A DNA stretch of 56,015 bases from Nitrospirota bacterium (GTDB taxonomy: Bacteria; JACPQY01), in NCBI GenBank assembly GCA_016180645.1, contig JACPAV010000023.1, forward strand, positions 1 to 56,015, read 5' to 3'. Each line of letters opens with the position of its first letter. Position 1 is the stretch's first letter. Shown here one piece after another: positions 1,773-51,563 of this stretch. A program made the translations under genes and the position numbers. The notes below the pieces were generated by a model. It did no database searches. It saw only the letters and a program-made list of their open reading frames with translations, and had not been told where the DNA came from.

Positions 1773-3245
1773 TCAATGAAACAGGATCGGGCCGACGTAG
1801 AGGAAGACGTAGAGCGTCACCAGCACGGCGGCGGCGAGGTCGAGGAGGAAGCCCGTGCGCATCATGACGGGGAGTCGGATGTAGCCGGAGCCAAAGACAA
1901 TGGCGTTCGGCGGCGTGCCGGCGGGGAGCATGAAATCGCAAGAGGCGGCGATGGCGGAGGCCGAGAGGACGGGGAGCGAACGGGGGAGGACGTTTAACAT
2001 CACGTTTACTGTCGCCGTATTCGAGGCGACGGCGGAGAGAAGGACCGTCGCCACACTTGTCAGGCCGATTTGCCAGATCAACGGAAACTCCGCGAGCGCC
2101 CGCAATTGCCCGGCCAGCCACGCAGAGAGTCCGCTCTCCTCGATTCCCGAGGCCATCGCAAAGCTGCCGCCGAGGAGAACGAGCGTTCCCCAGGGAAGAC
2201 GTCGGATCGATCGAAAGGACACGAGTCGCATCCCCACGAGCGAGAGGCCGGCCGACATTGCCACCCACGACTCGTAATGTTTGCCCTGAAACTTGAAACC
2301 CGTCCAGAACTCCGGGACAAAAGGGGCGATGGTTTGGCGCAACGGACTTCCTGCGATCCACAGGACGGCGGCGAGCCCAAAAACCAGCGCGATGCGCTTC
2401 TCTTCGCGCTTCATCGGACCCAAGGCCACGATCTCTCGCTGCAAGACGGAGCCCCCTTGCCCTTCAGGGATCCTATCTTTCCGGCCCGTGCGCCAAAGCA
2501 CCAGCCAGACTACTGGGAGGAACAACACCACGAACGGGACGCCAACCGCCATGTACTTTGCGAAACTGATTTCCACGCCGAGCTTGTCGGCGAGGAAACC
2601 GCAGAAAATCGAATTCGTGCCGGTGCCGATTTTTGTGCCGATTCCGCCGACGTTTGCCGCGTAGGCTACCGCGAGCATGATGGCGCTTCCGAAGTGGTGG
2701 AGCCTCCGTCCTCCCGACTCGGTTTCCAGTTGGGCAATCAGCGCCATCCCGATCGGCATCATCATGACGGCCGTGGCCGTATTCGAGATCCAGAGAGAAA
2801 CAATGGCGGTCGCCACAAGCACGCCCAGGAGCAGCCGCTTGGGGTCCGTGCCGATGACCCTCATGATGTGGAGGGCGATTCGACGATGGAGATTCCACTG
2901 TTCCATGGCGGCACCGATCATCATCCCTCCGAGGAATAGAAAGATGTAGGCGTCGAAGTAGGGCGAAGAGGATTGGGCGACGTTGTGAACGAGGCCGCCG
3001 CCAAATACGCCGAGGGTGGGGAAGAGAACAAGCGGCACCGCCGCCGTCCACGCCATCGGCAAGGCTTCGGTGAACCACCAGACGGCCATGAGCGCGGCCA
3101 CGGCCGCTGCGTAGGCGGGCCTTGAGCCAAATCCTTCAATCCGGTGGAGGCCGGAGGGCAGGAAAGCGAAGGCCGAGAAGGCGAGAACGCCGAGACCAAG
3201 GCCCGCACGCTGCCACGGGGTTTGGAGAAATCTGAGATTCTTCAC
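1773..3245 (-). CDS. SLC13/DASS-family sodium:anion symporter
   Basis: A 490-residue polytopic inner-membrane protein. It has the two SNT signatures of the divalent anion:sodium symporter family (SNTATAVMMMP, about residues 153-163, and SNTATVNVML, about 408-417). It also has the accompanying loops GTGTNSIF and LPAGTPPNAIVFGSG that bind sodium and the substrate carboxylates. Family members carry succinate, citrate, sulfate or similar anions with sodium; the substrate cannot be read from the sequence. The start is a GTG preceded by GGAG at a short distance. Length and hydrophobic profile (11-12 helices) are normal. No functional partner is adjacent. Confidence 0.85.
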   Translation of the reverse strand: MKNLRFLQTPWQRAGLGLGVLAFSAFAFLPSGLHRIEGFGSRPAYAAAVAALMAVWWFTEALPMAWTAAVPLVLFPTLGVFGGGLVHNVAQSSSPYFDAYIFLFLGGMMIGAAMEQWNLHRRIALHIMRVIGTDPKRLLLGVLVATAIVSLWISNTATAVMMMPIGMALIAQLETESGGRRLHHFGSAIMLAVAYAANVGGIGTKIGTGTNSIFCGFLADKLGVEISFAKYMAVGVPFVVLFLPVVWLVLWRTGRKDRIPEGQGGSVLQREIVALGPMKREEKRIALVFGLAAVLWIAGSPLRQTIAPFVPEFWTGFKFQGKHYESWVAMSAGLSLVGMRLVSFRSIRRLPWGTLVLLGGSFAMASGIEESGLSAWLAGQLRALAEFPLIWQIGLTSVATVLLSAVASNTATVNVMLNVLPRSLPVLSASAIAASCDFMLPAGTPPNAIVFGSGYIRLPVMMRTGFLLDLAAAVLVTLYVFLYVGPILFH

Positions 3246-3353
3246 TCGCTCCGCTCGCTCAGAAAGACATCCTAGCGCGTCGTTACGAGCAAAGCGAAGG
3301 ATCGGGATGGATCAGGAAATCCTCGCTGACCGCTGAAAACTGACTGCTGAGAG

Positions 3354-4370
3354 CTATCCTAGAATGTTGTAGAACGAGGAGGCGTCGAAGTCGACGAACT
3401 CGGCCTTGTGGTCGCTGATGCCGTAGCCACTGAGGATGCCGCCCTTTGTACCGGAAGGAAAGCCGCGGACGAAGATGTAGTCGAGGTGGAAAATCGTCTG
3501 CGTGATCCCGGAGCCTTCGACGTTCGTGAAGCCGGCGTCCTTGAACGCGCCCACGACGGGTTCCAGCTCGCCGCCCGCGGTGTTGAAGTCGCCGGATACG
3601 AGATGCATCTTGGTAAAGTCCGGGTTGGGGATCGCCGCGATGATCTCCTGTCCCTGCTCCTTTCGCGTTCCCGCCATCGTCTTAACCTCGAGGTGCGCGG
3701 ATACCGAGCGGACGAGGCGGCCGCTGATCGAGACATCGACCATCATCGCGCAGCGGGTGCCGAGGGGCGGATTTGAGTCCAGTTCGCGCTTGTAGATGTG
3801 GCGAACGACCTGCGGGTTGTGAAGCGGGAACTTGCTCAGGACGGCGTTGCCGCTGTAACCGGGCGCATAGCTGAACTCGCGGCAGAAGTAGTAGTTCATA
3901 CGGAGGGCCTTCGCCAGCTCGCGCGGTGCATTTCGATTCCCCGTGGCTTCGGACTCGGTGTAGATCTCCTGCACGTTGATGATCGAGGCGTTTTTGAGGT
4001 TCGATTCGGTCTGGAACTTCGAGATCATGTCATCCAGTTTTTCGCCGTGGGCCACGTTCCAGGAGATCAAACGAACGCTGTTCGGTTGATAGGTGCTGAC
4101 ATTCGCATCGCTATAGTTGCCGGACTCGACCTTGCAGAATTCCGCGCCCGCGGACAGATCGCCGAAGCACTTGCCGGCTGGCAACGTGCCGTCTGCATTC
4201 GCCTGCCAACCGCCGGAGCCGTTCCAAATGGGGGGTGGTTGAAAGGGTGTGCCTCCGCCTCCACCACCGCCCCCACCCCCGCAGCTTCCACTTTCCTCGG
4301 AGGTGAGGAAGGCAAACACGAACGCACATAAAGCCGCTTTGCCAAGCCGACCGAAGCCTAGGTTGATCAT
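3354..4370 (-). CDS. exported endonuclease/exonuclease/phosphatase (EEP) family protein
   Basis: A protein of about 338 residues with an N-terminal signal ending in SGSC followed by ten glycines, so it is probably a lipoprotein with a flexible tether. All core EEP motifs are present in order: ISWNVAHG (metal/Asn), INVQEIY (metal-binding Glu), SGDFNTAGGE (Asp-x-Asn), and a C-terminal GISDHKAEF (Ser-Asp-His). The fold hydrolyses phosphodiesters (nucleic acid, sphingomyelin or phosphoinositide types), and the substrate cannot be told from the sequence. I chose ATG 4370 rather than the upstream ATG at 4406 because TAGGAAGGAC precedes it at proper spacing and the signal peptide then begins at once. 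Confidence 0.8.
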   Translation of the reverse strand: MINLGFGRLGKAALCAFVFAFLTSEESGSCGGGGGGGGGGTPFQPPPIWNGSGGWQANADGTLPAGKCFGDLSAGAEFCKVESGNYSDANVSTYQPNSVRLISWNVAHGEKLDDMISKFQTESNLKNASIINVQEIYTESEATGNRNAPRELAKALRMNYYFCREFSYAPGYSGNAVLSKFPLHNPQVVRHIYKRELDSNPPLGTRCAMMVDVSISGRLVRSVSAHLEVKTMAGTRKEQGQEIIAAIPNPDFTKMHLVSGDFNTAGGELEPVVGAFKDAGFTNVEGSGITQTIFHLDYIFVRGFPSGTKGGILSGYGISDHKAEFVDFDASSFYNILG

Positions 4371-35037: not shown

Positions 35038-35053
35038 TTGGCAATCTCCTTGC
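35038..35053 (+). promoter_or_regulatory. sigma-54 promoter of the MopE/RCC1 lipoprotein
   Basis: TTGGCA-N6-TTGC with GG at 35040-35041 and GC at 35052-35053, exactly 10 nt apart as sigma-54 requires. Transcription should start near 35065, only about 3 nt before ATG 35068. Confidence 0.7.
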
Positions 35054-35067
35054 GTTTGCAATTTTCA

Positions 35068-38000
35068 ATGCTTCCCGAAGTGACTTTGGACTCTCTGACT
35101 CGCGCAACTTTCATTAGCGCCATTCTCGCCGCCATCCTGCTGTTGAATCTGAGTTCGTGCACCCGAAAGGGCGGTCGCTTGCTCCGAACCCCGCGGACGA
35201 CATCTTCTCCAAATGAAGGGAAGGCCTCCGAATCTCCCGCTGATGCCACCATCACCGGCGAAATATCGCCTGCATCCGCAAGGATTCTCGGCCGAGTCGT
35301 TTCCGAATCCGGCGAACCGGTTCCCGGCGCAAAGGTGAAGGTCATGCGGTTTGGTGATTCCAGCCTTTCGCGCGAGACGATGGCGGACGGCAATGGAGTT
35401 TTCTCCTTCGACTGGGATCAACTCGAAACCGTGGCGGTGTCTTCCACGGCTGAAGGATTCGCCACTCAAAGCACGATTGTCGATCTTGTCGAGCAGAGCA
35501 CGAGCTTGTCTCTCACGCTTCCCGCGATCCACTTTGTGAAGGACTACGAAATCAAGGCCGACACCCCGGAACTCAAGATCGACCTTCCCGACAACTCAGT
35601 CTCCATCGAGATTCCCGACCCGGCCCGAGCACTGGGAACGACCGGTCCGATTCGAGTGGAAGTCTCCTCACCTTCTTCAGGCGGCGCCGATGTGCCCATG
35701 CCCGGCGGATTCATGGCGATTCTGTCCCGCACCCCTTCCCCCTCCCCCTCGACGGGGGAGGGTCAGGGTGGGGGTGAAAACGTGCGAAAGCAGGCTGTTC
35801 GCCGTTCGGGGCCCGGACCAGAGGAGATTGTTCAGCTCGCCTCGGTCGCCTATGCGGACATTACCCTCCGTGATTCCGCCGGAAACGAGATTCATGAGCT
35901 GAACTCACCCGCCAAGGTAAGAATGAAAATCACGCCTGGCACGCTGAATCCCGCCACCAACGCGCCGTTCAAGATCGGCGATACGGTCCCCATGTGGTAC
36001 ATCGATCCCGACGCTGGCACATGGGTCCCGGAAATCGATGAGAAGGGTGAGCAGACCGTCGGGACCGTCCTGGGAGCCGATACCGGTCTACAGGCAGAGT
36101 TCATGGCGAAACATTTTACGTGGTGGAATTTGGACCAGCCCATTTCCACACGGCATTGTTTGCGCGGAAGGGTAATCGACCCATGCAATCTGCCCGTTAC
36201 CAATGTGAGCGTCTGTGCCAACGGAGTGAGTTTCCAGGGGGCAAGTTGTCGCGGTGCGACCAAGTTCGTCTACAAGCGAGAAGATGGGCTGGGACAGGAA
36301 GGATTATTTTGCTTGGACATCCTGAAGGGTAGCACAGTCGATCTCCAAGTCGGTCGGGGCGGGATCTACAAGGGAAGATTCGATCTCGATGAAGTCCTTT
36401 GGCAGAAACAGCTCTCCGTATCGGGTACGGAGGCCACATGCGGCCAATCACCACTCGCATGCACGGACCTCGGGGACGTGGTGGTGCTCCGCTCTCTACG
36501 CCGAGTAGTAGGCCGAATTGTCAACAAGGGGGGGGAGATGGTGGGCCACGCCCTGGTTAGTGTGAATGGGAGGGTTTTTGAGGCGGCGGGCGACGGTCAT
36601 TTCGAACTCAGAAGTGAGCCAACCGAGAACCTCACGATTTCTTTCACCCACCCCAAGGGCGCAAAGTTCGGCCAGACTACGCGCGGGGCGAACATTCCCG
36701 GAGTGACCCCCGAGCCGGGCAAGTGCGAACAGCTCCCCCCGATCGATCTTGGAGACATTCCCATGAACACGGAAACAGGATGTCTGCGAGGGAAAGTCGT
36801 GGACGAAACGGGGAACGTGGTCCAAAATGCCAATCTCGCCTTGGGCGGAAGTTTCGTCCAAAGCGACCGAGGCGGGAACTACTGCCTGGAGTCGCTCACC
36901 GGCGCGCAGGAACTCAACCTTCGTCTGTATGATCGTGGCCGCGGCCGCCTCCACACGAAAAAAGCCCCCTACCAAATCGTGGGAGGCGGCTATTGCGGCG
37001 GAGGGGACGAACGGTGCGTCCATGCGGATATCGTCGTGGAACTCGGAGATGCCTGCATCTCCGGCACGGTCAAGGACCAAGCAGGCAAGCCCCTCGACAG
37101 CGCGGTTGTTCAGATCGGCAACCAAATGGTCACCACCGATAAAACCGGTCATTATTGCATCCAGGCCCAAGCCCGCGCGAAGCAGAGCATTCGATTCAGA
37201 GCCTTCTCCGGGATCGGCGGCGCCGCATCCGAATCTGAGGAAACCGTCGAAGTCGAAACCAGCGGTCCCGGCCTGTGCAGCGCGAACGCAAAGAAGAATT
37301 GCACTTCGCATGACGCAACCATTCGCATCAACCAGCCACCGGCCATCGATTCGATCAAGGCGAGGGACAAGCGCGTGGACCCATCCGAAGAAACCGAAAT
37401 CACGCTCCGAGCGACCGATCCCGAAGACGCAGAGATGGGCTTCGTCTGGTCCTCCACCGGCGGTGAGGTCCAAGCCCCAAACTCCAAGATTTCCGGCCAG
37501 CACCCCCCATCCCCACCTTCCCCCTCAAGGGGGGAAGGGACGATAGGGAACCCGCTTCACACAGCTTCCCCCTCCCCCTCGACGGGGGAGGGTCAGGGTG
37601 GGAGTGAACGCCCACCTCAGGCTGGTCCCACCCGCCAAATCACCTGGAAAGCCCCCGCGGAACCCGGCGTATACACCGTCAGCGTCATCGCCAAGGACGA
37701 TCGCGGCGCAACAGCCATCGCAAGCGTGGAGATCCCCGTCGGACAGGATCAAGACGGCGACGGCTTCATCGAGAAGATCGACTGCGACGACCGGAACTCC
37801 AGTGTCCACCCCGGCGCTCCGGAGATCTGCGATCAGACCGACAACGACTGCAACGGGAAGGTCGATGACGTTCCCGCCACAATGGTCTTCTGGAAGGACC
37901 AGGACGGCGACGGGTACACGGACGGCACTTTCTTGAAGGGCTGCCCGGTGGGTCCCGGCTGGACTCAGACCGCGAAGAGAGGCGATTGCCGGGATGATCT

Positions 38001-41000
38001 CAGCGTCGTGACACCCGGCGCCGTCGAAATCTGCGATGGGCTGGACAATAACTGCGACGGTCAAATCGACGAGAACACCGGCGGCGGTTCCTGCAACACA
38101 ACGATGGCCGGCACGTGCTCCTCCGGTTCACTTGTCTGCGCCAAAGGCACACTCGCCTGCGCCCAACGCCTATCGCCCACCGCCGAATCCTGCGACGGCC
38201 TGGACAATGACTGCGACGGTTTGATCGACGAAAACCTCGGCGGACAAGCCTGCAACGCAAACAAGCCGGGGCTCTGCTCCACGGGAGATATGGCTTGCAA
38301 GAACGGCGTCATGGCCTGCATCCCGCGCCTCGCGCCCACCGCCGAATCTTGCGACGGCCTCGACAACGATTGCGACGGGACGGTGGATGAGAATTGCGAG
38401 TGTATCGACGGAAAAAGCCAGCCTTGCTACACCGGGCCGGCCGGATCGAACAGCGTGGGAGTGTGCAGGGCGGGGACTCAGACCTGTGCAAGCGGCATAT
38501 GGGGTGTTTGCGCAGGCCAGAAGCTCCCCGCCCCGGAGATTTGCGACGGGGTGGACAACGATTGCAATGGACAGGCGGACGAACAGACGGGCGGCGGCTC
38601 ATGCTCAACGGGACAGCCGGGCGTGTGCGCCCAAGGCGCCATGAAATGCGCCTCGGGTTCCCTCGTCTGCGCTCCCCTCGCGCTGCCCTCCGCCGAGAGG
38701 TGCGACGGCCTCGACAACGATTGCGACGGCCTTGCCGATGAGAACTTCCCCACTAAAGGGGAATCTTGCTCCACGGGCACCGGCGCCTGTGAAGTGGAGG
38801 GCGTCGTAGGTTGCAGCACGGATGGAACGTCCGTCACCTGTCTGGCCGACCCCCGATCCCCGACCCCTGAACTGTGCGATGGCTTCGACAATGACTGCGA
38901 CGGCCTCGCGGACGAGGATTTCTTGAATAGGGGACAAAATTGCCTCGCTGGAACCGGCGCATGTCAGGCGGCGGGGGTGATTTCTTGCTCCGCGGATGGC
39001 ACAGGCACGCTTTGTTCCGCGGTCCCGCTGTCCCCCAGTCCCGAACTTTGCGACACGGTGGACAACGATTGCGACGGCGTGATCGACAACGGCTGTTCTT
39101 GCGTGGACGGGACTTCCCGCCCCTGCTACTCAGGTCTGGCCGGAACAGCGGGCACTGGCCTTTGCTCGATGGGATCCCAATCATGCCCCGGCGGTCAATG
39201 GGGCATCTGCGCAGGGGAAACGACTCCGGCGATGGAAGTGTGCGATGGTCTCGACAACAACTGCAACGGCCAAGTGGATGAGAACACAGGCGGGGCCGCC
39301 TGCTCCACAGGCAAGCCCGGCCTGTGTGCCGAAGGGACTCTCAATTGCGTGAATGGCGCTCTCATCTGCGCCCAACGCCTATCGCCCTCCGCCGAAATCT
39401 GCGAAGGCCTCGATAACGATTGCGACGGGTCGGTGGACGAAACGTTCTCTACCAAGGGCCAGATTTGCATGGTGGGCATCGGCCAGTGTCAGGCGTCGGG
39501 ATCTGTGGTCTGTACCATCGACGGTTCGGGCACGGTCTGTTCCGCTGCCCCCCGCCCCCCGGCACCTGAACTCTGTGACTCACTGGACAACGATTGCGAT
39601 GGCAGCACCGACGAAGACTTCTTCAGCAAGGGTCATGCGTGCTCGGAGGGAGTTGGGATGTGCCAGGCCACGGGAACCTTCCAATGTAGCTCCGATGGCT
39701 CGGTCCTGATCTGTTCGGCTGACCCCTGGCCTCCGACCCCTGAATCCTGCGACGCCTTCGACAACGACTGCGATGGCCTCACGGATGAAGGGTGCAACTG
39801 TCTCGACGGCGCCACGCAACCCTGCTACATGGGTCCGGCGAATACCGAAGGCGTGGGACTTTGCACTTCGGGCACCCAGACGTGCTCGAGTGGCAATTGG
39901 GGAATGTGCTCCGGCCAGAAAACTCCGGGTGCCGAACTATGCGACGGCCAGGACAACGATTGTGACACCGCGATTGATGAGGAGACGGGCGGCGGAAGTT
40001 GCAGCACCGGACAATCCGGCGTCTGCTCCGCAGGGACCTTCGCCTGCTCCAACGGCGCTCTCACCTGCGCCCAACGCCTATCGCCCTCCGCCGAGTCCTG
40101 CGACGGCCTCGACAATGACTGCGACGCTTCCACGGACGAGACGTTCACAAATCTGGGCCAATCCTGCTCCGCCGGCGCTGGCGAATGCAAGACAACGGGC
40201 GCGTTCATCTGCCTCGCGGACGGTTCAGGTTCGACCTGCTCCGTGTTCGCGGGCGCACCGTTACCTGAACTCTGTGATGGCCTCGACAACGATTGCGACG
40301 GCCAGACGGACGAGGACAACGTCTGCATTCCCGCCGCCCCTTCCAACCTCACCGCGACGGCCATATCTTCCAGCTCCATCCGCCTCAACTGGACCGACAA
40401 CTCCACCAACGAAACCGGCTTCATCATCGAGCGAAAGATCGGCTCCACCGACTCATACACTCAATTGGCTTCAACTGCCGCCAACACCACCCCCTACACC
40501 GATTCCGGCCTGACCGAGGGCACCGACTACTGGTACCGCGTCGCCGCTTACTCTGCCAAGGGAATCTCCCCCTATTCGGCAGAAGCTTCCGCCCTGCGCA
40601 GCCAGCCAAAGATTACGGCCATTGCGGCGGGGGGCGCCCACACATGCGGATTGGCCGTTAACGGAGAAATCAAGTGTTGGGGATCCAATGGCTACGGAGC
40701 GCTTGGAGATGGGACAACAACTAGTAGACCCATCCCCATCACCGTTCCCTTTTCCCTTGGCGCTGCGGCAATTTCTACCGGATTGAATCACACCTGCGAA
40801 GCCTCCTGGGATGGGTCGGTTCGATGTTGGGGCGACAACTTCTTTGGGCAACTCGGTGATGGGACAACTAAGAACAGACTAACACCCCAGGTTGTTAGCT
40901 CGATTACGGATGCTGTCGCGATATCGAGCGGACCTTCCCACACTTGCGCACTTGCTGCAGATGGAACGGCCAGTTGCTGGGGGGCGACTGGATCGGGGGA

Positions 41001-41640
41001 AAAGAACCTAGTGCCCATCAAAGTCTCTGGCCTGCACGGCGTCGTAGCGCTCTCGGCGGGAAATTCCCACACCTGCGCACTTCTACTCGAAGGAACGGTA
41101 TGGTGCTGGGGGGCAAATTGGTACGGACAACTCGGAGACGGAACCACGACGGGAAGCAAGACCCCTGTACATGTCTCCTCTCTGACAAACGTCGTGGCCA
41201 TAGCCACGGGCTTCTATCACACATGTGCGCTCGAGGCAGAGGGAGCCATGAAGTGTTGGGGGCTTAACTGGGAAGGTCAGCTTGGGAATGGATCGTTCAT
41301 CAATCTTTCCACACCACTGCAAGTCTTCCAAGGCGCTGAAGTGAAGGGAATATCCTGCGGCTCTTACCACACCTGCGCACTCGTATCGGACGGTACGGTG
41401 AATTGTTGGGGAGACAATTTCTACGGGCAGGTAGGAGATGGATCCACTTCCAACCGGGGCGTACCTGTGCCCGTCTTGGGGCTCACGGGTGCGACTTCCG
41501 TAACTGCCGGCTACTCCCACGCCTGTGGACTCGTGGCGGAAGGAGTAGCCAGATGCTGGGGGAACAATGGCAGTGGACAGCTAGGCGATGGGACCACAAC
41601 CAATCGCCTCACCCCCGTCCAGGTGCTGAATCTTCCGTAA
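35068..41640 (+). CDS. giant lipoprotein: carboxypeptidase-regulatory-like, MopE repeats, Fn3, RCC1 propeller
   Basis: A 2190-residue outer-surface candidate. Signal peptide ends LNLSSC, followed by TRKGGR. By position: five carboxypeptidase-regulatory-like domains (about 35280-37250), an Ig/PKD-like domain (37340-37730), a region with 15 copies of a Cys/Asp motif of the form E-x-CDGLDNDCDG-xx-DE (37740-40320), one Fn3 domain (40330-40605) and seven RCC1 blades (40606-41640), each with HTC...CWG. The Asp/Asn-rich motif is that of MopE-type proteins and is expected to bind calcium or copper. Seven blades would close a propeller. Two repeats are inserted in frame (35730-35776, 37501-37616). The frame opens at TTG 35038, but ATG 35068 lies just after the predicted transcription start. 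Probable roles are adhesion or metal-dependent surface binding; none is proven. Confidence 0.85.
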   Translation: MLPEVTLDSLTRATFISAILAAILLLNLSSCTRKGGRLLRTPRTTSSPNEGKASESPADATITGEISPASARILGRVVSESGEPVPGAKVKVMRFGDSSLSRETMADGNGVFSFDWDQLETVAVSSTAEGFATQSTIVDLVEQSTSLSLTLPAIHFVKDYEIKADTPELKIDLPDNSVSIEIPDPARALGTTGPIRVEVSSPSSGGADVPMPGGFMAILSRTPSPSPSTGEGQGGGENVRKQAVRRSGPGPEEIVQLASVAYADITLRDSAGNEIHELNSPAKVRMKITPGTLNPATNAPFKIGDTVPMWYIDPDAGTWVPEIDEKGEQTVGTVLGADTGLQAEFMAKHFTWWNLDQPISTRHCLRGRVIDPCNLPVTNVSVCANGVSFQGASCRGATKFVYKREDGLGQEGLFCLDILKGSTVDLQVGRGGIYKGRFDLDEVLWQKQLSVSGTEATCGQSPLACTDLGDVVVLRSLRRVVGRIVNKGGEMVGHALVSVNGRVFEAAGDGHFELRSEPTENLTISFTHPKGAKFGQTTRGANIPGVTPEPGKCEQLPPIDLGDIPMNTETGCLRGKVVDETGNVVQNANLALGGSFVQSDRGGNYCLESLTGAQELNLRLYDRGRGRLHTKKAPYQIVGGGYCGGGDERCVHADIVVELGDACISGTVKDQAGKPLDSAVVQIGNQMVTTDKTGHYCIQAQARAKQSIRFRAFSGIGGAASESEETVEVETSGPGLCSANAKKNCTSHDATIRINQPPAIDSIKARDKRVDPSEETEITLRATDPEDAEMGFVWSSTGGEVQAPNSKISGQHPPSPPSPSRGEGTIGNPLHTASPSPSTGEGQGGSERPPQAGPTRQITWKAPAEPGVYTVSVIAKDDRGATAIASVEIPVGQDQDGDGFIEKIDCDDRNSSVHPGAPEICDQTDNDCNGKVDDVPATMVFWKDQDGDGYTDGTFLKGCPVGPGWTQTAKRGDCRDDLSVVTPGAVEICDGLDNNCDGQIDENTGGGSCNTTMAGTCSSGSLVCAKGTLACAQRLSPTAESCDGLDNDCDGLIDENLGGQACNANKPGLCSTGDMACKNGVMACIPRLAPTAESCDGLDNDCDGTVDENCECIDGKSQPCYTGPAGSNSVGVCRAGTQTCASGIWGVCAGQKLPAPEICDGVDNDCNGQADEQTGGGSCSTGQPGVCAQGAMKCASGSLVCAPLALPSAERCDGLDNDCDGLADENFPTKGESCSTGTGACEVEGVVGCSTDGTSVTCLADPRSPTPELCDGFDNDCDGLADEDFLNRGQNCLAGTGACQAAGVISCSADGTGTLCSAVPLSPSPELCDTVDNDCDGVIDNGCSCVDGTSRPCYSGLAGTAGTGLCSMGSQSCPGGQWGICAGETTPAMEVCDGLDNNCNGQVDENTGGAACSTGKPGLCAEGTLNCVNGALICAQRLSPSAEICEGLDNDCDGSVDETFSTKGQICMVGIGQCQASGSVVCTIDGSGTVCSAAPRPPAPELCDSLDNDCDGSTDEDFFSKGHACSEGVGMCQATGTFQCSSDGSVLICSADPWPPTPESCDAFDNDCDGLTDEGCNCLDGATQPCYMGPANTEGVGLCTSGTQTCSSGNWGMCSGQKTPGAELCDGQDNDCDTAIDEETGGGSCSTGQSGVCSAGTFACSNGALTCAQRLSPSAESCDGLDNDCDASTDETFTNLGQSCSAGAGECKTTGAFICLADGSGSTCSVFAGAPLPELCDGLDNDCDGQTDEDNVCIPAAPSNLTATAISSSSIRLNWTDNSTNETGFIIERKIGSTDSYTQLASTAANTTPYTDSGLTEGTDYWYRVAAYSAKGISPYSAEASALRSQPKITAIAAGGAHTCGLAVNGEIKCWGSNGYGALGDGTTTSRPIPITVPFSLGAAAISTGLNHTCEASWDGSVRCWGDNFFGQLGDGTTKNRLTPQVVSSITDAVAISSGPSHTCALAADGTASCWGATGSGEKNLVPIKVSGLHGVVALSAGNSHTCALLLEGTVWCWGANWYGQLGDGTTTGSKTPVHVSSLTNVVAIATGFYHTCALEAEGAMKCWGLNWEGQLGNGSFINLSTPLQVFQGAEVKGISCGSYHTCALVSDGTVNCWGDNFYGQVGDGSTSNRGVPVPVLGLTGATSVTAGYSHACGLVAEGVARCWGNNGSGQLGDGTTTNRLTPVQVLNLP
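35730..35776. repeat. palindromic repeat inserted in a coding region
   Basis: CACCCC...CCCTCGACGGGGG...GGGGTG, a repeat type normally between genes, sits in frame in the giant lipoprotein and encodes TPSPSPSTGEGQGGGE. Length 47 nt within an open frame. Confidence 0.65.
37501..37616. repeat. double palindromic repeat inserted in an Ig-like domain
   Basis: Two units of the same repeat family in tandem (CCTTCCCCCTCAAGGGGGGA and CCCCCTCGACGGGGG), adding about 39 in-frame residues including PPSPPSPSRGEG and SPSPSTGEGQGG. They split an Ig-like domain between STGGEVQAP and RQITWKAP. The corresponding segment of the second giant has no insert. Confidence 0.65.
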
Positions 41641-41833: not shown

Positions 41834-41863
41834 TTGACGATACTAACGTTACGCGTTAGTATC
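41834..41863 (+). promoter_or_regulatory. higBA promoter with overlapping operator
   Basis: TTGACG (41834-41839), 17-nt spacer, TAGTAT (41857-41862). A perfect inverted repeat GATACTAACG-N5-CGTTAGTATC (41839-41863) covers the spacer and -10 box and is the expected HigA operator. Only 6 nt separate the -10 box from the TTG start. Confidence 0.7.
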
Positions 41864-41868
41864 CTCCC

Positions 41869-42150
41869 TTGGCGATCCGATCGTTCAAATGCGCGGAGAC
41901 GCGCGCGCTGTTCAACGGTGAACGGGTGAAACGATTCGCAAACATCGAGAGCGTGGCCATGCGCAAACTGGCCATGTTGAACCGGGCCGCAACCCTCGCC
42001 GATCTGCGGGTGCCACCCGGAAATCGATTGGAGCCGTTGAAGGGCGACCGGGCCGGTCAATACAGCATACGCGTCAATGAACGCTTCCGCGTCTGCTTCG
42101 CCTGGACTTCGGCCGGCCCGAAGGACGTCGAGATCGTGGATTACCATTGA
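41869..42150 (+). CDS. higB: HigB-type ribosome-dependent mRNA interferase toxin
   Basis: A 93-residue RelE-superfamily toxin. It follows the HigB pattern throughout: IRSFKCAETRALFNGE near the start, RKLAMLNRAATLADLRVPPGNRLE in the middle, GQYSIRVNERFRVCFAW, and the C-terminal VEIVDYH. HigB enters the ribosomal A site and cuts mRNA. The start is a TTG 6 nt after the -10 box, so the mRNA should be leaderless. higA follows after 11 nt. Toxin-first order is usual for higBA. Confidence 0.88.
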   Translation: MAIRSFKCAETRALFNGERVKRFANIESVAMRKLAMLNRAATLADLRVPPGNRLEPLKGDRAGQYSIRVNERFRVCFAWTSAGPKDVEIVDYH

Positions 42151-42161
42151 AGGAGGAGAGC

Positions 42162-42497
42162 ATGCGCAAAATTCCGTACCCACGACCCGGTGAAATCCTG
42201 ATGGAAGAATTCCTCAGGCCGATGGGCATTTCTCAGTACCGTCTCGCCAAGGAAATCGGCGTGCCGCAACGGCGTATCGGCGAGATCGTGGCCGGAACCC
42301 GTTCGGTCAGCGCCGACACCGGTCTCCGTCTCTCACGCTTCTTCGGCATGTCCGACGGCTTTTGGATCGGCTTGCAGGTGGATTACGACGCGGCAAGGGC
42401 CAAGGATTTCCTCGCCAAAACCCTGGCAGGAATCCAACCGTGGAAACGGGGATCAATTCCCTCAGGGCGGCCAGTCCGGAGTCTTGAATCCACCTGA
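42162..42497 (+). CDS. higA: HigA-type antitoxin
   Basis: A 111-residue antitoxin with an XRE helix-turn-helix (about 15-70): PGEILMEEFLRPMGISQYRLAKEIGV is the HigA start (landmarks PGEILMEEFL and YRLAKEIGVP), then RIGEIVAGTRSVSADTGLRLSRFFG. It neutralises HigB and represses the operon at the palindrome at 41839-41863. The ATG at 42162 has GGAGGAG before it. The C-terminal 25 residues after DYDAARA are unlike other HigA proteins and may be changed. Confidence 0.88.
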   Translation: MRKIPYPRPGEILMEEFLRPMGISQYRLAKEIGVPQRRIGEIVAGTRSVSADTGLRLSRFFGMSDGFWIGLQVDYDAARAKDFLAKTLAGIQPWKRGSIPSGRPVRSLEST

Positions 42498-43472: not shown

Positions 43473-43541
43473 GAAATACTCAATGTGAATTTCACTAACG
43501 ATTCACCCGCACCGTCCGACGACGCCATTGGAGGCATTGAG

Positions 43542-46500
43542 TTGGGGATAGTGGCACGAGGCAACCCTTCTTGGTCTAGGCTGTCGATCCGCGCTCTGAT
43601 CGGCTCGGCTTTTCTCCTCGCCGTTGCAGGTTGCACGGGGAAGGGCGGCCGCATCGGTTACCGAGACGGACGCCTGCCTTCACAACAGGCTGATGTACGC
43701 ACCGATGAACTCGTTCTCGAAAATCGACCGTTCGACCCAGAAAAAGTTGCCACCGATCCCGCGACCGGATTTCAAATGGTGTCGGACGAGATCCTTGTCA
43801 CGTTCAAGCCGGGCACGACGGCGCAGGACGCCGAGGCCGCCGTGCAGTCCATCGGGGGAAAGCTCGTCGGATTCAACTCGACTCTTGATTTATATGAAGT
43901 CGAATTACCGGCCGCTCTCACGCCGGGGGAGGCTCGCGAAAAACTGAAGGCCAATCCGGCTGTCGATCAGGCCTTTCCCAACGGCATCGCTAAGGGCGAT
44001 CAAACGGACTCTCAGTCCACCTGCGGCTGGCCCGATGGTTTTCCAAACGACCCGGTGTTCAAGGACTGCGACGCCAAGAACGATTGGGGCTATGCGAAGA
44101 TCAGCGCGGGGCCGGCCTGGCAAACCACCGCCACGTTAACGGAGGTGGTGATCGCCATCCTCGATACGGGCGTCGATTCCTCCCACCCCGAATTCGCCGA
44201 CCGCATGCTCCCCGGGCGTGACTTTGTTTATGGAGGGACCGACACAACCGACCGTCACGGGCACGGCACCCACGTGGCCGGCATAGCCGCGGCACGCGGC
44301 AACAACGAAAAAGGTATGGCCGGCGGCTGCTGGGAGTGCAAGATCCTGCCCGTCAAAGTGCTGAGCGATGGCGGTTGGGGCACGTGGATGGGAGTCCTGA
44401 ACGGAATTGCGTGGGCCGCCCAGCAAGGGGCCGATGTGCTGAACATGAGCCTCGGCGGAGGCCGGTCGGAAGATCTCTACAAAATGATGGAAGATGCAAT
44501 CGCTTCAGCCCGGAAGTCAGGAGCCCTCTCCGTGGTGGCGGCGGGAAATTCGAATACCGATGCTTCCTTCATGCTGCCCGCCGCGGCGCCTTCCGCGGTC
44601 ACGGTGGCTGCGACATCTTCAACTGACCAACGCGCGACGTTCTCGAATTTCGGATCGATCGTGGATGTATCGGCGCCCGGCGTCGACATCTGGTCGACCT
44701 ACCCGAACAACGGCTACAAATACATGAGCGGGACGTCCATGGCCGCGACCATGGTGACCGGCGCCGTGGGCTGCATTTTTTCACGGGGGGCCGCCTCCTC
44801 ACCCGATGAAGCGGAAAGTCTCCTGAAAGCGGTGGCGGATTCAATCCAGACGGACAAGCCGCTGGGCGCCGGTCGCCTCAACCTTGGAAAGGCGTGCACA
44901 TCCAACGGCAACAAGCCGCCGATGGTGGCCCTCCAAGCCGATCCTTCGTCTCTGAAGCCCCTGGGCGTCTCCACGATCACGGCGAAGGCCTCCGATTCGG
45001 ACGGCGATCCTCTCTCATACGCGTGGACCTCCACCGGCGGCACGCTCACCGGTACCGGTACCACCGTCACATGGAACGCACCGGACAAAGTCGGGGCCTA
45101 CTCGATCACGGTGAAAGTGAGCGACACCCACTACATGGTCCCCGCCTCCTTGACGATCTCGGTGAAAACCGGCGAGGTCTACAGCCTGGTCATCATGCCC
45201 GGGATCGTGCCCGACATGATCAAAGGGCAGACCCAACAGATGAAATGGCGCATCGAGGACGAGGTCGGCCAGGTTCTGAACGAATCGCCTGCGTGGAACG
45301 TGGCTCAAGGGGTCGGCTCCATCACCGCGGGCGGCCTCTTCACTGCGGAGAACCCCGGCGAAGGGCAGATCGTCGCCGAGTTCAAGGGTGCGGTGACGAA
45401 CGCGAAGGTCAAAGTGGTCAACCGACTTCCCACCTGCTACGCCTCGGCCTTGCCGCTCAAAGGCCACATTCCCTTCGAAGTGGAGTTCGCAGGTTCCGCC
45501 GTCGACCCCGACGGGTCCATCCCGACCGGATCGTGGAGCTTCGGCGACGGAGGAACCGCGACCGGCATGGCCGCGAAGCACACGTACATTTCACCCGGCC
45601 ATCCGGACGCCACATTCACGGCAACGGATGCCCATGGCGGCAGTTGCACAACGATCATCCCCATCCAAGCCGAGCCGCCGAACAAGGCGCCCACGTGCAA
45701 GGCTTCGGCAGGTCCGGCCACCGGCAAAGCACCTCTGCACGTGCAGTTCTCCTCCGGGGCACAAGACGTGGATGGAACCGTTGCTTCAACACTGTGGACC
45801 TTCCACAACGGCAGTACCCAGACGCAATCGCAGGCAAGCTTCCTGTACACAACCGCGGGTACGTACTCCGTCTCCCTCGCCGTGAAGGATGACGACGGGG
45901 CGACATGCGTGGATCAGACGAGCGTTATGGTCCTCCCACCCAACACGCCGCCGACCGTCATCGCGAACGCGAATCCCTCATTCGGAGATGAGCCCCTGCC
46001 CATCGTACTCAGTGCCACCGCGTGGGACTCCGACGGCAAGATCTCCTCGTACGCATGGACTACCGGCGATGGTGGAACCTCGTCACAAGCTTCGTTCGCC
46101 CACACGTACAAGCAGGACGGCGCCTACACGGCCACGGTCACCGTAACCGATGACGACGGTGCGAGGGCAACGGCCAAGGCGTCGGTGCAGGTGAAGCAAG
46201 TCATCCATCCACCCACCTGCACCATCGAGGCCATACCCACCCAGGGAAAAGCGCCGCTGTCGGTGAGCTTCAGCGGCAGCGCCGCCGATGCGGACGGGTC
46301 GATCACCGGCACACTCTGGTCGTTCGGCGACGGAACTTCTTCCAACAGCGCCGCCACCTCCCACGTTTATTCCAGGGCAGGGACGTTTTCCGCCGATTTC
46401 AAGGCCACGGACAACGACGACGCCACCTGTCACGGTTCGGTGCAGCTCAATGTCCGCCCCCCCAACCAGCCGCCTACGCTGGCGCTCCAAGCCACGCCAC

Positions 46501-49500
46501 CCATCGGGAACGAGCCGCTGACGGTGCAGTTCACCTCCAACGCCGGCGATGCCGATGGAACCATCGTCGCCTACCAATGGAACTTCGGCGACGGGCAGTC
46601 GTCATCCGAAGCCAACCCTTCACACGTCTATGTGAACGATGGGAAGTACACCACCGCGGTGACCGTAACGGACGACGACGGCGCAACGGCCACCGCCTCG
46701 ACGGTCATTCGCGTGGACAAGGTTTTCCTCCCCGTGTCCTGCACTGCATCGGCAGTCCCCGAGTGGGGGTCCGCGCCTCTTCCGGTCCAGTTCACGGGTA
46801 CCGTGAGCGATCCGGGAGGAGATGTCGTTTCGTCTACGTGGGACTTCGGCGACGGCGCGTTTTCAACACAGTTGAGCCCCACGCATACCTATGGGATCGA
46901 GGGCGCGCCAACCGCAACCTTGCGCGTCAAGTCCGCCTGCGCCGCGAAGCAGATCGTAAGCGGTGATCGACATACCTGCGCCCTCCTGGCCGATGGGACC
47001 GTGGCCTGTTGGGGATCCAACCGTTCGGGTGAACTCGGGGACGGGAGCACCGTGGACCGGGATGTCCCCGTCGCCGTTTCCAGTCTGAACGGCGTGACCG
47101 AGCTAAGGGCGGGACGAGATCGGACCTGCGCAGTGCTTCAAGATGAGACCGTCCAGTGTTGGGGGAACTTGAGCGGGTTGGCGGGCGGCGACGGGACGTC
47201 GAGCCTTGTGCCGGTCGCTGTCGCGGACAGTTCGGGAGTTGGAGACCCGAGCCCGGCCTACTCCCATTCCTGCTCCATCCCATCCAACGGAACCGTCGCA
47301 TGCTGGGGAAGCAACGCCTCGGGGCAGCTCGGCGACGGCACGACAGTGGACCGGCCCGATCCCGTCGCCGTAATCGATCTTCAAGACGCGAAGGCCGTTG
47401 CCGTCGGCGAGGAACATTCCTGCGCTCTTCTAGCCGGTGGGAGTATCAAGTGCTGGGGGTCCGACCATGAAGGTCAACTCGGAGACGGGGCAAGCGATCC
47501 CACAGTGATCAGGGCCGTCCCTGAGCCGATCGCTTCTTCCCTCTGCTCCGCCTGCACCAAGACTCTACACATAAGCGTGAATCCCAGTCAGCCGCCGGTG
47601 TGTTCGGTTTCCGCCACCCCCGTCGTTGGACCGGTGCCCCTGACCGTATCCTTCTCCGCACAGGGCTCGGACCCCGAGGGCCAGCCGGTATCGTTCGCGT
47701 GGACCTTTGGGGATGGAAACCCGGGCACGGGATCGAACCCCAGCCATTCTTATGTTTCTAGGGGCATTTTCACCACCCGTCTCACGGCGCAAGATCCGCA
47801 GGGCGCACAGTGCATCAAGGAAATCCAAATCCAAGCCAACCCGAACATGCCACCGACCTGCTCCGCCGCCGTGAGCCCGACGCGTGGACCGGCGCCGCTC
47901 CAGACCACGTTCACCGGAAACGCGGCGGACTCGGACGGCTCCATCGTCGGGTCCTCTTGGAACCTCGGAAACGGGTCCACCCTCACCACCACATCGGGAA
48001 GTTACAGCTACGCACAGGCCGGCACCTACTATCCGGTGTTCACCGCCAAGGACAGCAGCGGGGCAACCTGTTCCAAGAATTCCAGCGTGAAAGTGGATGC
48101 GAAGCCCGTTTGCGCGATCTCGGCTACACCCACCCAAGGGCGCGTTCCCCTCACCGTCTCCTTTGGCGGCGCGGCAACCGATTCTGACGGGTTCGTGATG
48201 GCGACCACTTGGAACTACGGCGATGGCTCCTCTCCCGGCGGCGGCTTCTCCACACACACCTTCCAATCCGAGGGCCAATACACGGCCACATTCACCGCCG
48301 CCGACAACGACGGGTACACGTGCACACCATCACTATCCATCAAGGTCCTCCCACCCAACAAACCGCCGACCTGCGCGGCAAGCGCCTCGCCGGCCAAAGC
48401 CCACGTTCCCGGAAACATCCCATTCTACGGCACGGCCTCGGACTCTGATGGCAGCGTAGCCCAATTGTTTTGGGCGTTCGGAGACGGCTCGACATCCAGC
48501 TCGCAAAATCCTTCGCACCTCTACACAACGCCAGGCTCGTTTGAGGCCAAGCTGACGGTCACGGACAACGAGGGAGCCACCTGCGCGAGCACCCAATCGA
48601 TCGTGATCGAACCACCGAACAAACCGCCGACGGTATCCATGGCGGCCACGCCACCGAAAGGCCCCGAACCCCTGAACGTCGGATTCACGGCCACCACCTC
48701 CGATCCCGACGGTCAGGTGGTAACCTATGCCTGGAATTTCGGGGATGGAACTTCATCCGCAGCGGCTTCTCCGCAACACCTCTACTCACAAGACGGAACC
48801 TACACCGCCACACTGGTGGTCACCGACGACGACGGCGCGACCGCTTCGGCCTCGGCGGTGGTCGTCGCCGAAAAGGTCTTGATCGCCCCGAATTGCTCCG
48901 CCTCGGCCACCCCGATCAAAGGCCATCAGCCTCTGCAAGTCACTTTCAGCGGAACGGCTACGGACGCCGACGGCTCGATCCAGAGCACGACCTGGAAGTT
49001 CGGAGACGGCTCGCAAACCGCCGGCGCCGGCGCGACGCACACCTACACAACGCAGGGCTCCTATACAGCCGTCTTCTCCGCCGGCGACAACGACGGCGTT
49101 TCGTGCAGCGCACAAGTCGGCATCGTCGTGGAGCCGCCCAACAAACCGCCGGTCGCCGTCCTCTCGGCCGATCCCAGAGCCGGGTTTGTGCCGCTGGCCG
49201 TTTCTCTCAACGGCGCGGCGAGCTGGGATTCGGATGGATCGGTCGTCACCTTCGAATGGGATTTCGGTGACGGAACGCAGGGCATCGGGTCGACACCGGC
49301 CCATATGTTCAAAGTGTGGGGGGATTTCGAGGTCAAGCTTACCGTCACCGACGACGACGGAGCGAGGGGTACCGCCACCGTGTGGATCGAAGTCTGGGAG
49401 GGCGATACGGGTTCCGCTGATGCGTGGCCGATGTTTGGGGCGAACGCCGCGCACCACAACTTCTCTCCGGCGAGACTGCCCTCGACTCTCGATATTCTGC

Positions 49501-51563
49501 CTTCCATCTGGCCCTCGGGTTCAGGAGGCATCGGCGGACAGGAGCTGAACATTCCCGTCCTCTCGCCGGCCATCAGCGATGGCCTGTTGTATACAACCAC
49601 CTCGGACCGCCTGCACACGTTCGACGCCCTCACGGGCAAAGCACTCTGGTCGCTCCCGGTACCTTACGCCTCGGACGACCCAACTCCGGCCATCGGCGAA
49701 GGCGTTATCGTGTTCACCACGGGCAACGAACTCTACGCCTACGAGGTCGCGACCGGCCGTCTCCTCTGGGGGCCGAAAAGCCTGGACCTTTGCAGCGACT
49801 CCACATCGCCCGCGATCGCCGATGGTCTCGTCGCTGCCATCGACTGCCAGAGCAATCTCCGGGTTTTCAGCCTGCACACCGGAGCGGCCGTGCTGAATGC
49901 GCTCGTGCACGGGGGACAAGTAACCACCCCCTCCGGCAGCCCCACCCTCTACAACGGAAAGATTTGGACGGCTACTCCCATGCCCTCCATCGGAAAAACC
50001 TATCTGGACCGCTGGAACGCTTCTCCTACGGGCTTTGAAACCACCACGGTGGTCGACGGCCTGGTCCAATCCGCGCCCGCCGCCAAATACAACACGCTGT
50101 TCGTGGGGGACCTCTCGGGCAGACTCTCCGCCTATGACGTGGGCACGGCCGTCCGCCGTTGGACCTTCCTGGCCGGTCACAGTGTTTCCACCACGCCCGC
50201 GGTCGTTCGCGGCAAGGTCATCTTCGGCTCGTGGGACCACAAGGTCTACGCCCTCGACGCCTTCACGGGGAAACTTCTTTGGAGCGCCCTCACCGATGGG
50301 GAAATCCGGTCCAACGTGGCAGTCACGCCGGACTACGCCATTGCGGTCAGCCGGCCGGGGACGGTCTACCGCTTCAAACTGACCGATGGATCGTTGGTCG
50401 ATTCGACGGCCCTCGGCGTGGAAACTTGGGCCTCGCCCGCCCTCGCCCACGGCATGATCTATGTCGGCTCATCGGACGGGAAGATTCACGTCCTCGGCGA
50501 CTCGAGCAAACTCCAGTCCCTGACACGCACGTGGACCTCGCTCGGAGCGGACGCCGGACACACCGGCTCCGCGCCCACGCTCGGCCCCACATCCGGAAGC
50601 GAACAATTCGTCTTCACCGCGGGCGGCGGCGTCAACGGCAGCGCGGTGTTGAACGATCAAGGTGAGCTCCATTTTGGCACGGCCTCGGGAACTTTCTACG
50701 CCCTTCAGCGTGACGCGACGGTGAAATGGTCCTATCCAACGGGCCTCTTGCGGGGCTCGGCGGCCATGGACGGTTGGGGCAATGTCATCGCGGCATCACA
50801 GGGAGGCGTGGTCCACAAGATCAGTCCCACCGGCGTGCTTCTTTGGACGTACTGGGTGGCCAATACCATTCAGGCCACGCCGTGCGTCGGCCCGGACGGA
50901 AGCGTGTATGTCGGGGATACCTCGGGAAAATTCTTCGGGATCAGCGCGGACGGCGCGCTCAAGTTCAAAACCTCTCTCGGCGACGCCATGCGGAACGCCT
51001 GCGCAACGGATGCCGCGGGGAACATTTACGTGGGCGGGGGAGACAACAGGCTCCGGAAGTTCAGCGCTTCCGGAGCCCTCCTTTTCGAGCGCGGTTTTAC
51101 CGGGCCCGTGCTGACGACGCCCACGGTGAGCGAGAACGGAACCGTTTTTGTATCCACTCAAAACGGCTACTTCTTCGCCCTGACCTCCGGAGGCGGCCTC
51201 CTCTGGTACGCTTCCGGCGGCGGAACCGCAAGCGTGGACTCGAACAACGTCTACGTTCAGTCCGCAGGTGGACTGGATGTCTACACCCGATCCGGGTCAC
51301 CCGTATGGAGCTTCAGACCCGGCGGCGGCTGCTCGAACCCCGTCACCGAAAGCCCGATCGTTGACGTGGAGGGAAACGTTTTCTTCAAGCACCGCGGCGG
51401 CGGATGCACGGGCGGAGCCGTCATCCATGCGCTCGATCCCACGGGGCAACTTCTCTGGAGCACCCCCGTAGCCGCCGGATCGGACTCCAGCCCCTCCCTC
51501 GGACGCGGCCGCGCGCTCTACCTCGGCTCCGGCCAGGGTCTCCACATTTTCGGCCAGAACTGA
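43542..51563 (+). CDS. giant subtilisin-like lipoprotein with PKD, RCC1 and PQQ-like propeller domains
   Basis: A protein of about 2673 residues. Signal peptide ends AVAGC, then TGKGGR. A propeptide-like segment (DEILVTFKPGTTAQDAEAAV) precedes a full S8 protease domain with Asp208 (LDTGVDSSHPE), His241 (HGHGTHVAG) and Ser399 (SGTSMA). Then: one Ig/PKD-like domain; six PKD domains (45420-46940); a 4-blade RCC1 cassette (46941-47555) that splits the sixth; seven more PKD domains (47560-49410); and two PQQ-like propellers (49420-51563). The family should be exported and self-processed. TTG 43542 is chosen because GGAGG (43530-43534) lies 7 nt before it; GTG 43485 at the transcription start is an alternative. 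Function at the cell surface, such as protein digestion with substrate binding, is inferred. Confidence 0.88.
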   Translation: MGIVARGNPSWSRLSIRALIGSAFLLAVAGCTGKGGRIGYRDGRLPSQQADVRTDELVLENRPFDPEKVATDPATGFQMVSDEILVTFKPGTTAQDAEAAVQSIGGKLVGFNSTLDLYEVELPAALTPGEAREKLKANPAVDQAFPNGIAKGDQTDSQSTCGWPDGFPNDPVFKDCDAKNDWGYAKISAGPAWQTTATLTEVVIAILDTGVDSSHPEFADRMLPGRDFVYGGTDTTDRHGHGTHVAGIAAARGNNEKGMAGGCWECKILPVKVLSDGGWGTWMGVLNGIAWAAQQGADVLNMSLGGGRSEDLYKMMEDAIASARKSGALSVVAAGNSNTDASFMLPAAAPSAVTVAATSSTDQRATFSNFGSIVDVSAPGVDIWSTYPNNGYKYMSGTSMAATMVTGAVGCIFSRGAASSPDEAESLLKAVADSIQTDKPLGAGRLNLGKACTSNGNKPPMVALQADPSSLKPLGVSTITAKASDSDGDPLSYAWTSTGGTLTGTGTTVTWNAPDKVGAYSITVKVSDTHYMVPASLTISVKTGEVYSLVIMPGIVPDMIKGQTQQMKWRIEDEVGQVLNESPAWNVAQGVGSITAGGLFTAENPGEGQIVAEFKGAVTNAKVKVVNRLPTCYASALPLKGHIPFEVEFAGSAVDPDGSIPTGSWSFGDGGTATGMAAKHTYISPGHPDATFTATDAHGGSCTTIIPIQAEPPNKAPTCKASAGPATGKAPLHVQFSSGAQDVDGTVASTLWTFHNGSTQTQSQASFLYTTAGTYSVSLAVKDDDGATCVDQTSVMVLPPNTPPTVIANANPSFGDEPLPIVLSATAWDSDGKISSYAWTTGDGGTSSQASFAHTYKQDGAYTATVTVTDDDGARATAKASVQVKQVIHPPTCTIEAIPTQGKAPLSVSFSGSAADADGSITGTLWSFGDGTSSNSAATSHVYSRAGTFSADFKATDNDDATCHGSVQLNVRPPNQPPTLALQATPPIGNEPLTVQFTSNAGDADGTIVAYQWNFGDGQSSSEANPSHVYVNDGKYTTAVTVTDDDGATATASTVIRVDKVFLPVSCTASAVPEWGSAPLPVQFTGTVSDPGGDVVSSTWDFGDGAFSTQLSPTHTYGIEGAPTATLRVKSACAAKQIVSGDRHTCALLADGTVACWGSNRSGELGDGSTVDRDVPVAVSSLNGVTELRAGRDRTCAVLQDETVQCWGNLSGLAGGDGTSSLVPVAVADSSGVGDPSPAYSHSCSIPSNGTVACWGSNASGQLGDGTTVDRPDPVAVIDLQDAKAVAVGEEHSCALLAGGSIKCWGSDHEGQLGDGASDPTVIRAVPEPIASSLCSACTKTLHISVNPSQPPVCSVSATPVVGPVPLTVSFSAQGSDPEGQPVSFAWTFGDGNPGTGSNPSHSYVSRGIFTTRLTAQDPQGAQCIKEIQIQANPNMPPTCSAAVSPTRGPAPLQTTFTGNAADSDGSIVGSSWNLGNGSTLTTTSGSYSYAQAGTYYPVFTAKDSSGATCSKNSSVKVDAKPVCAISATPTQGRVPLTVSFGGAATDSDGFVMATTWNYGDGSSPGGGFSTHTFQSEGQYTATFTAADNDGYTCTPSLSIKVLPPNKPPTCAASASPAKAHVPGNIPFYGTASDSDGSVAQLFWAFGDGSTSSSQNPSHLYTTPGSFEAKLTVTDNEGATCASTQSIVIEPPNKPPTVSMAATPPKGPEPLNVGFTATTSDPDGQVVTYAWNFGDGTSSAAASPQHLYSQDGTYTATLVVTDDDGATASASAVVVAEKVLIAPNCSASATPIKGHQPLQVTFSGTATDADGSIQSTTWKFGDGSQTAGAGATHTYTTQGSYTAVFSAGDNDGVSCSAQVGIVVEPPNKPPVAVLSADPRAGFVPLAVSLNGAASWDSDGSVVTFEWDFGDGTQGIGSTPAHMFKVWGDFEVKLTVTDDDGARGTATVWIEVWEGDTGSADAWPMFGANAAHHNFSPARLPSTLDILPSIWPSGSGGIGGQELNIPVLSPAISDGLLYTTTSDRLHTFDALTGKALWSLPVPYASDDPTPAIGEGVIVFTTGNELYAYEVATGRLLWGPKSLDLCSDSTSPAIADGLVAAIDCQSNLRVFSLHTGAAVLNALVHGGQVTTPSGSPTLYNGKIWTATPMPSIGKTYLDRWNASPTGFETTTVVDGLVQSAPAAKYNTLFVGDLSGRLSAYDVGTAVRRWTFLAGHSVSTTPAVVRGKVIFGSWDHKVYALDAFTGKLLWSALTDGEIRSNVAVTPDYAIAVSRPGTVYRFKLTDGSLVDSTALGVETWASPALAHGMIYVGSSDGKIHVLGDSSKLQSLTRTWTSLGADAGHTGSAPTLGPTSGSEQFVFTAGGGVNGSAVLNDQGELHFGTASGTFYALQRDATVKWSYPTGLLRGSAAMDGWGNVIAASQGGVVHKISPTGVLLWTYWVANTIQATPCVGPDGSVYVGDTSGKFFGISADGALKFKTSLGDAMRNACATDAAGNIYVGGGDNRLRKFSASGALLFERGFTGPVLTTPTVSENGTVFVSTQNGYFFALTSGGGLLWYASGGGTASVDSNNVYVQSAGGLDVYTRSGSPVWSFRPGGGCSNPVTESPIVDVEGNVFFKHRGGGCTGGAVIHALDPTGQLLWSTPVAAGSDSSPSLGRGRALYLGSGQGLHIFGQN
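46932..47555 (+). other. RCC1 cassette flanked by 9-bp direct repeats inside a PKD domain
   Basis: TCCGCCTGC occurs at 46932-46940 and 47547-47555, 615 bp apart (205 codons). The DNA between encodes four RCC1 blades. Removing one copy plus the insert rejoins PKD strand TATLRVKSAC to TKTLHISVN, which restores a normal PKD end. Confidence 0.65.

Follow-up and report, generated by a model that had tools for sequence, protein, structure and literature searches.

The locus described here raises the question of how a set of RCC1 blades came to lie inside a PKD domain of a giant bacterial protease, and whether it was acquired recently, as a cassette, or is an old part of the protein. PKD arrays are usually stalks, and RCC1 propellers are usually binding platforms. 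The window, that is, the whole stretch of 56,015 nucleotides analysed from a Nitrospirota bacterium (contig JACPAV010000023.1), contains the host gene and, upstream of it, a second giant gene with RCC1 blades. The first-pass annotation had proposed a recent gain, by short homology, of a cassette inserted cleanly in a PKD domain that would close normally without it. The reading favoured here, which is considered probable, is that of an established nested domain, with four RCC1 blades set in the last turn of the sixth PKD of a surface-anchored subtilase lipoprotein. The features on which the argument is built are the following:

40612 to 41637, forward strand: seven-blade RCC1 block of the neighbouring giant gene, at the C-terminal end of that gene (35038-41640)
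43485 to 51563, forward strand: host gene, 2692 aa, GTG start as listed
45426 to 46727, forward strand: five unbroken PKD domains upstream of the split PKD
46728 to 46931, forward strand: first part of the sixth PKD, the split one (aa 1082-1149), ending with strand F (..TATLRVK) and containing C1086
46932 to 46940, forward strand: 5' copy of TCCGCCTGC (Ser-Ala-Cys; C1152, candidate neck cysteine)
46941 to 47546, forward strand: four RCC1 blades and a C-terminal linker ending in SSLC (C1354, candidate neck cysteine)
47547 to 47555, forward strand: 3' copy of TCCGCCTGC (Ser-Ala-Cys; C1357)
47547 to 47591, forward strand: last strand of the split PKD (SACTKTLHISVNPSQ), with the next PKD (PPVCSVSATP) immediately behind it
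47592 to 49410, forward strand: seven unbroken PKD domains, collinear with seven PKDs of the paralogue G000:C24

The host product begins with a lipoprotein-like N-terminus (LLAVAGC), followed by a Fervidolysin-type prodomain, an S8 subtilase domain (PF00082, 183 bits) and a Big_9 domain, as identified from Pfam profiles and the translation; the rest consists of the PKD array, broken by the RCC1 blades, and of PQQ/BamB-type propellers at the C-terminus. The motifs ILDTGVD, HGTHVAG and GTSMA can be read in the translation, as can the lipobox, and together they suggest a surface-anchored protease. The 13 PKD units that follow the S8 protease are reminiscent of the PKD stalks of secreted or surface proteases and collagenases (PF18911, PF00801; Clostridium ColG/ColH), from which the host protein differs in that one of its PKDs has the last turn replaced by another domain. 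We know of no described PKD with its last turn exchanged in this way, and a shallow literature search for a published example found none. Between the neighbouring giant gene and the host gene lies a HigB-type toxin/HTH antitoxin pair (41836-42497), comprising a HigB-type toxin gene at 41869-42150 (PF05015, TTG start) and an HTH antitoxin gene extending to 42497; a 13-bp near-perfect inverted repeat upstream of the toxin gene (41836-41848/41854-41866) could be an operator.

The earlier claim that an in-frame RCC1 module lies inside a single PKD was borne out, with PKD sequence before the blades and a PKD-like last strand after them. The sister PKDs, in this protein and in a paralogue, are highly regular. 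Against an HMM built from 24 of them, the N-terminal part by itself reaches 69.8 bits; it also scores 49.3 bits for PF18911, above the cut-off, and contains the W.FGDG core and the N-terminal strands. When both halves are joined, the score against the sister HMM rises to 75.8 bits (+6 bits) and the alignment runs from end to end; the C-terminal strand after the insert is short and reaches 4.3 bits by itself (E 0.011, in a set of five sequences). In an alignment with 20 sister PKD pairs, the gap made by the insert falls exactly at the F-G turn, and SACTKTLHISVNPSQ followed by PPVC matches the last strand and second cysteine of the sisters. The second of the conserved PKD cysteines has its counterpart in C1357, so that the PKD cysteine pair is formed by C1086 and C1357, one on each side of the insert. 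An AlphaFold2 (AF2) model built with a PKD alignment gives a pLDDT of ~95 both to the core of the PKD and to the strand after the insert (residues 279-285), although the model may be biased and is not fully independent, because the C-strands of the sisters were aligned to that strand; with an RCC1 alignment lacking PKD rows, the PKD was modelled without confidence. The modelled PKD matches the ColG/ColH PKD structures in Foldseek. As judged from sequence and predicted structure, the nesting of RCC1 inside a PKD is well supported, and it is not a product of chance. An assembly artefact, fusing two genes of a genome rich in RCC1 and PKD sequences, would be easiest to imagine in an assembly of 65 contigs with many repeats such as this one; it is nevertheless highly improbable, given a single open frame, uniform in composition over its 2692 aa, a junction sequence that has no second copy, the lack of closely similar blades to mis-join, and the collinearity with the paralogue of the PKDs on both sides.

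How clean the insertion is can be judged from the PKD that would be left behind. Removal from repeat to repeat leaves halves that do align end to end, but this joined form is four residues short at the F-G turn, and the claim of normal closure was not borne out. A D-x-x-G turn between the last two strands is found, in some form, in 24/24 sister PKDs. Moreover, the Cys-Cys spacing of the joined PKD is 66, while that of the Cys-bearing sisters is 70 in 15/16 cases and 71 in the remaining one (1/16). Since the joined PKD is four residues shorter than its sisters and has this reduced spacing, about 205 residues appear to have replaced about four, and the description of a clean insertion does not hold. 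As read from the sequence, the net change would be about 205 residues in and four out, or else a clean insertion followed by a deletion, two routes that are indistinguishable here.

The content of the insert agrees with what had been claimed, since profile matches confirm four RCC1 blades between the repeats. The insert scores 95 bits for PF13540 (cut-off 22) and 73 bits for PF00415 (cut-off 21.7); the whole-domain model PF25390 gives 118 bits, under its cut-off of 150. A genome-specific HMM finds four blades, and not the seven that close one propeller. Given RCC1 rows for the alignment, AF2 models the greater part of the blades at a pLDDT of ~90, and the top Foldseek matches of the model are UVR8, HERC2 and RCC1. 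The insert shares with the RCC1/BLIP-II-type beta-propellers (PF00415, PF13540) the blade consensus HTCAL..DGTV.CWG....GQLGDG and, in its models, a match to the fold of UVR8, RCC1 and HERC2, but it differs from these seven-bladed propellers in having four blades and in being internal and nested.

Ten cysteines are present in the insert, counted from repeat to repeat: eight form four within-blade pairs and the others stand one at each edge (C1152 and C1354). Among the RCC1 blocks listed, only this insert has such edge cysteines, and a disulfide between C1152 and C1354 probably staples its neck. With four blades the standard ring of seven is not reached; the blades may be a relic or lie in an open arc, or they may pair in trans. 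Highly repetitive propellers that are short of blades have been read as fragments of full domains (PMC9218822), while engineered four-blade WD40 fragments form eight-blade dimers (PMC6805158). A more specific proposal, that the blades serve for assembly in trans and are no broken propeller, the half-propellers of two surface proteases, each disulfide-necked in its PKD loop, pairing as an eight-blade ring and thereby dimerising or zipping the stalks, is very unlikely.

The 9-bp direct repeat bears on the mode of arrival. The two copies of TCCGCCTGC, at 46932-46940 and 47547-47555, are exact, maximal at 9 bp and in frame, with a spacing of 615 bp (205 codons), as had been reported, and both translate to Ser-Ala-Cys. 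No other 9-mer of the host gene recurs at exactly 615 bp. The repeat is suggestive, because it is the longest edge repeat across 37 RCC1-bearing frames, the remaining frames having 7 bp at most; by the same comparison, edge repeats were rejected as a general mechanism for RCC1 blocks. However, 2.9% of the position pairs in the real gene that lie 205 codons apart have a repeat of at least 9 bp between 60-bp edges; with synonymous resampling the figure is 7.7%, and for random pairs of 61-bp windows it is 4.5%. Furthermore, two Ser-Ala-Cys peptides would share the same codons in 6.6% of cases. The peptide may itself be due in part to a need for cysteine at the edges, because C1152 and C1354 would staple the neck. 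With a chance of 3-8%, and with both copies encoding a cysteine that has a plausible disulfide role, the repeat is weak evidence of how the insert arrived: of the proposed gain by short homology, the exact repeat stands, and the support that it lends to the mechanism is slight.

Nine base pairs is also a frequent length for target-site duplications, and on this general ground the repeat could be taken as the mark of a transposable element carrying the blades. Such an origin is barely conceivable, considering that terminal inverted repeats are absent (8/20 positions match), that no transposase lies between the repeats and that the insert codes in frame for RCC1 throughout.

As regards the source of the blades, the genome is exceptionally rich in RCC1, with about 285 matches in 4.7 Mb. 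Blades were counted in 33 RCC1 blocks from fetched stretches of the genome: 21 blocks have 14 blades, five have seven and four have 13, the other counts being nine (at a contig end), eight (overlapping a second RCC1 frame) and the four of the insert, so that exactly 7 or 14 blades are found in 26/33. Nearly all the blocks are C-terminal, the clear exceptions being the insert and, in one further frame with two 14-blade blocks, the first of these. About 30 giant proteins of the genome have an RCC1 stack of 7 or 14 blades at their end (L101, L102, L104, L106, L128 and L138 are examples), mostly behind an FN3-like linker (YYFVVRARDEAGN), and in some stacks the blades are up to 90% identical, an indication of strong blade amplification. 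In L134:728-4347, two overlapping open frames with 8 and 7 RCC1 blades resemble a frameshifted gene of 14 or 15 blades or an assembly error.

The best in-genome RCC1 matches to the insert reach ~50-54% amino acid identity and come from blades of many stacks, while its own four blades have a mean identity of 46% to one another, which places the block among the more diverged ones. Its composition is close to that of the host gene, both in GC (0.652 vs 0.633) and in GC3 (0.712 vs 0.757). A seven-blade RCC1 block is indeed present in the neighbouring giant gene, as had been noted, but it does not match the insert in the sense of being its closest relative: when the four blades were compared with the seven, the neighbour's blades ranked 41st or worse among 450 for every blade of the insert, and the block was rejected as donor. 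The neighbour is a lipoprotein (35038-41640) with CarboxypepD_reg domains, ten MopE putative metal-binding repeats, fn3 and the seven RCC1 blades; its RCC1 part has a GC of 0.573 and a GC3 of 0.583, both below those of the insert. Amplification in situ from one blade is likewise unsupported, the sibling blades not being each other's nearest. Judging from these identities and from the host-like composition, the blades seem to be drawn from the large RCC1 pool of the genome and long diverged, with no sign of recent arrival, and the earlier description of the gain as recent was not upheld.

The only full-length paralogue, G000:C24 (L100:2944-13941), has 3666 aa and the organization S8-PKD-PQQ-PKD-PQQ; no RCC1 was found in it. 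It has two S8 stretches, and its unit of PKD array and PQQ propeller is duplicated, so that stalk and propeller have apparently been doubled. The paralogue resembles the host protein in being collinear with it on both sides of the insert, at 53% identity (residues 136-1072 with 613-1554, and 1368-2690 with 2334-3664), and differs from it between these stretches, where two PQQ propellers take the place of the split PKD and RCC1. This position of the stalk accepts different propeller modules, as that difference shows, and for the two paralogues the alignments show it to be a point of module exchange.

The paralogue also bears on the proposal that short homology at TCCGCCTGC recently brought a 615-bp RCC1 cassette, in frame, into an otherwise normal PKD and left a direct repeat. 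Such a gain would be in line with the absence of the insert from the paralogue and with an exact edge repeat that is the longest of those compared and has no counterpart among the other 9-mers of the gene at that distance. The paralogue misses the entire split PKD, however, and for this reason it offers no empty site and was rejected as an empty-site control. Taken together with an empty form short of four residues common to all the sister PKDs, the lack of a close donor (identity at most ~54%), the host-like GC and GC3 of the insert and the appreciable chance of such a repeat, this leaves a recent gain quite unlikely. A chimeric junction, in which recombination between a PKD array and an RCC1 stack would have left two unrelated PKD halves around a fragment of a seven-blade propeller, is also unlikely. 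It would account for a blade number that breaks the rule of multiples of seven followed in this genome and for the location at the module-exchange point between the paralogues, and the N half is nearest to para_2684 and P1_1714 while the C half, too short for its ancestry to be reliable, is nearest to others. Against it, the halves are complementary save for the four turn residues, and each has one half of the conserved PKD cysteine pair.

Searches beyond this pair of genes gave no second example. An orthologue search in two genomes of the phylum found RCC1 proteins in the second genome but no homologue of the protease domain, and within the present genome PKDs are almost confined to the host gene and its paralogue. 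No nested RCC1-in-PKD was found among 79 PKD-bearing GTDB loci, nor any frame with both RCC1 and PKD motifs in four viral-contig loci; records L148, L149 and L150 of the viral-contig collection have long frames with RCC1-like blades 35% identical to the region. Propellers or blade-like folds beside PKD or Ig-like stalks were returned by Foldseek, namely the archaeal S-layer YVTN-PKD protein 1l0q, fragments of Aureispira GhpA and SorCS2. Over the whole length these are weak matches (TM ~0.2), and no nesting of a propeller in a PKD was seen in the Foldseek listings.

The established nested domain is ordinary in kind and unusual in detail. In this arrangement, about 205 residues would stand in place of the four-residue D-x-x-G turn, between the last two strands of the PKD, which would close around them, its last strand and second disulfide cysteine coming after the insert, as the sequence indicates and the model supports. 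The edge cysteines C1152 and C1354 probably staple the neck of the insert. The blades would come from the RCC1 pool of the genome, which elsewhere is mainly arranged in C-terminal stacks of 7 or 14, and the module would occupy the point of the stalk at which the paralogue bears its PQQ propeller pair. The nesting looks old and adapted, rather than the product of a fresh cassette gain. By analogy with other RCC1 propellers and PKD stalks, the module would most likely serve for binding or display partway along the rigid stalk; that it alters the binding specificity of the surface protein is conjecture.

The case does not establish short homology as a route of domain gain. It does provide a concrete example of part of a propeller set within a PKD hairpin, where the RCC1 blades of the genome otherwise occur almost only as C-terminal sets of seven or 14. 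If the fragment folds, it would bear on the number of blades that a natural RCC1 unit needs, and also on whether partial propellers can work as oligomers, as engineered WD40 fragments do (PMC6805158). Finally, the comparison of the two genes shows that paralogous giant surface proteases differ by whole propeller modules at one position of the stalk.
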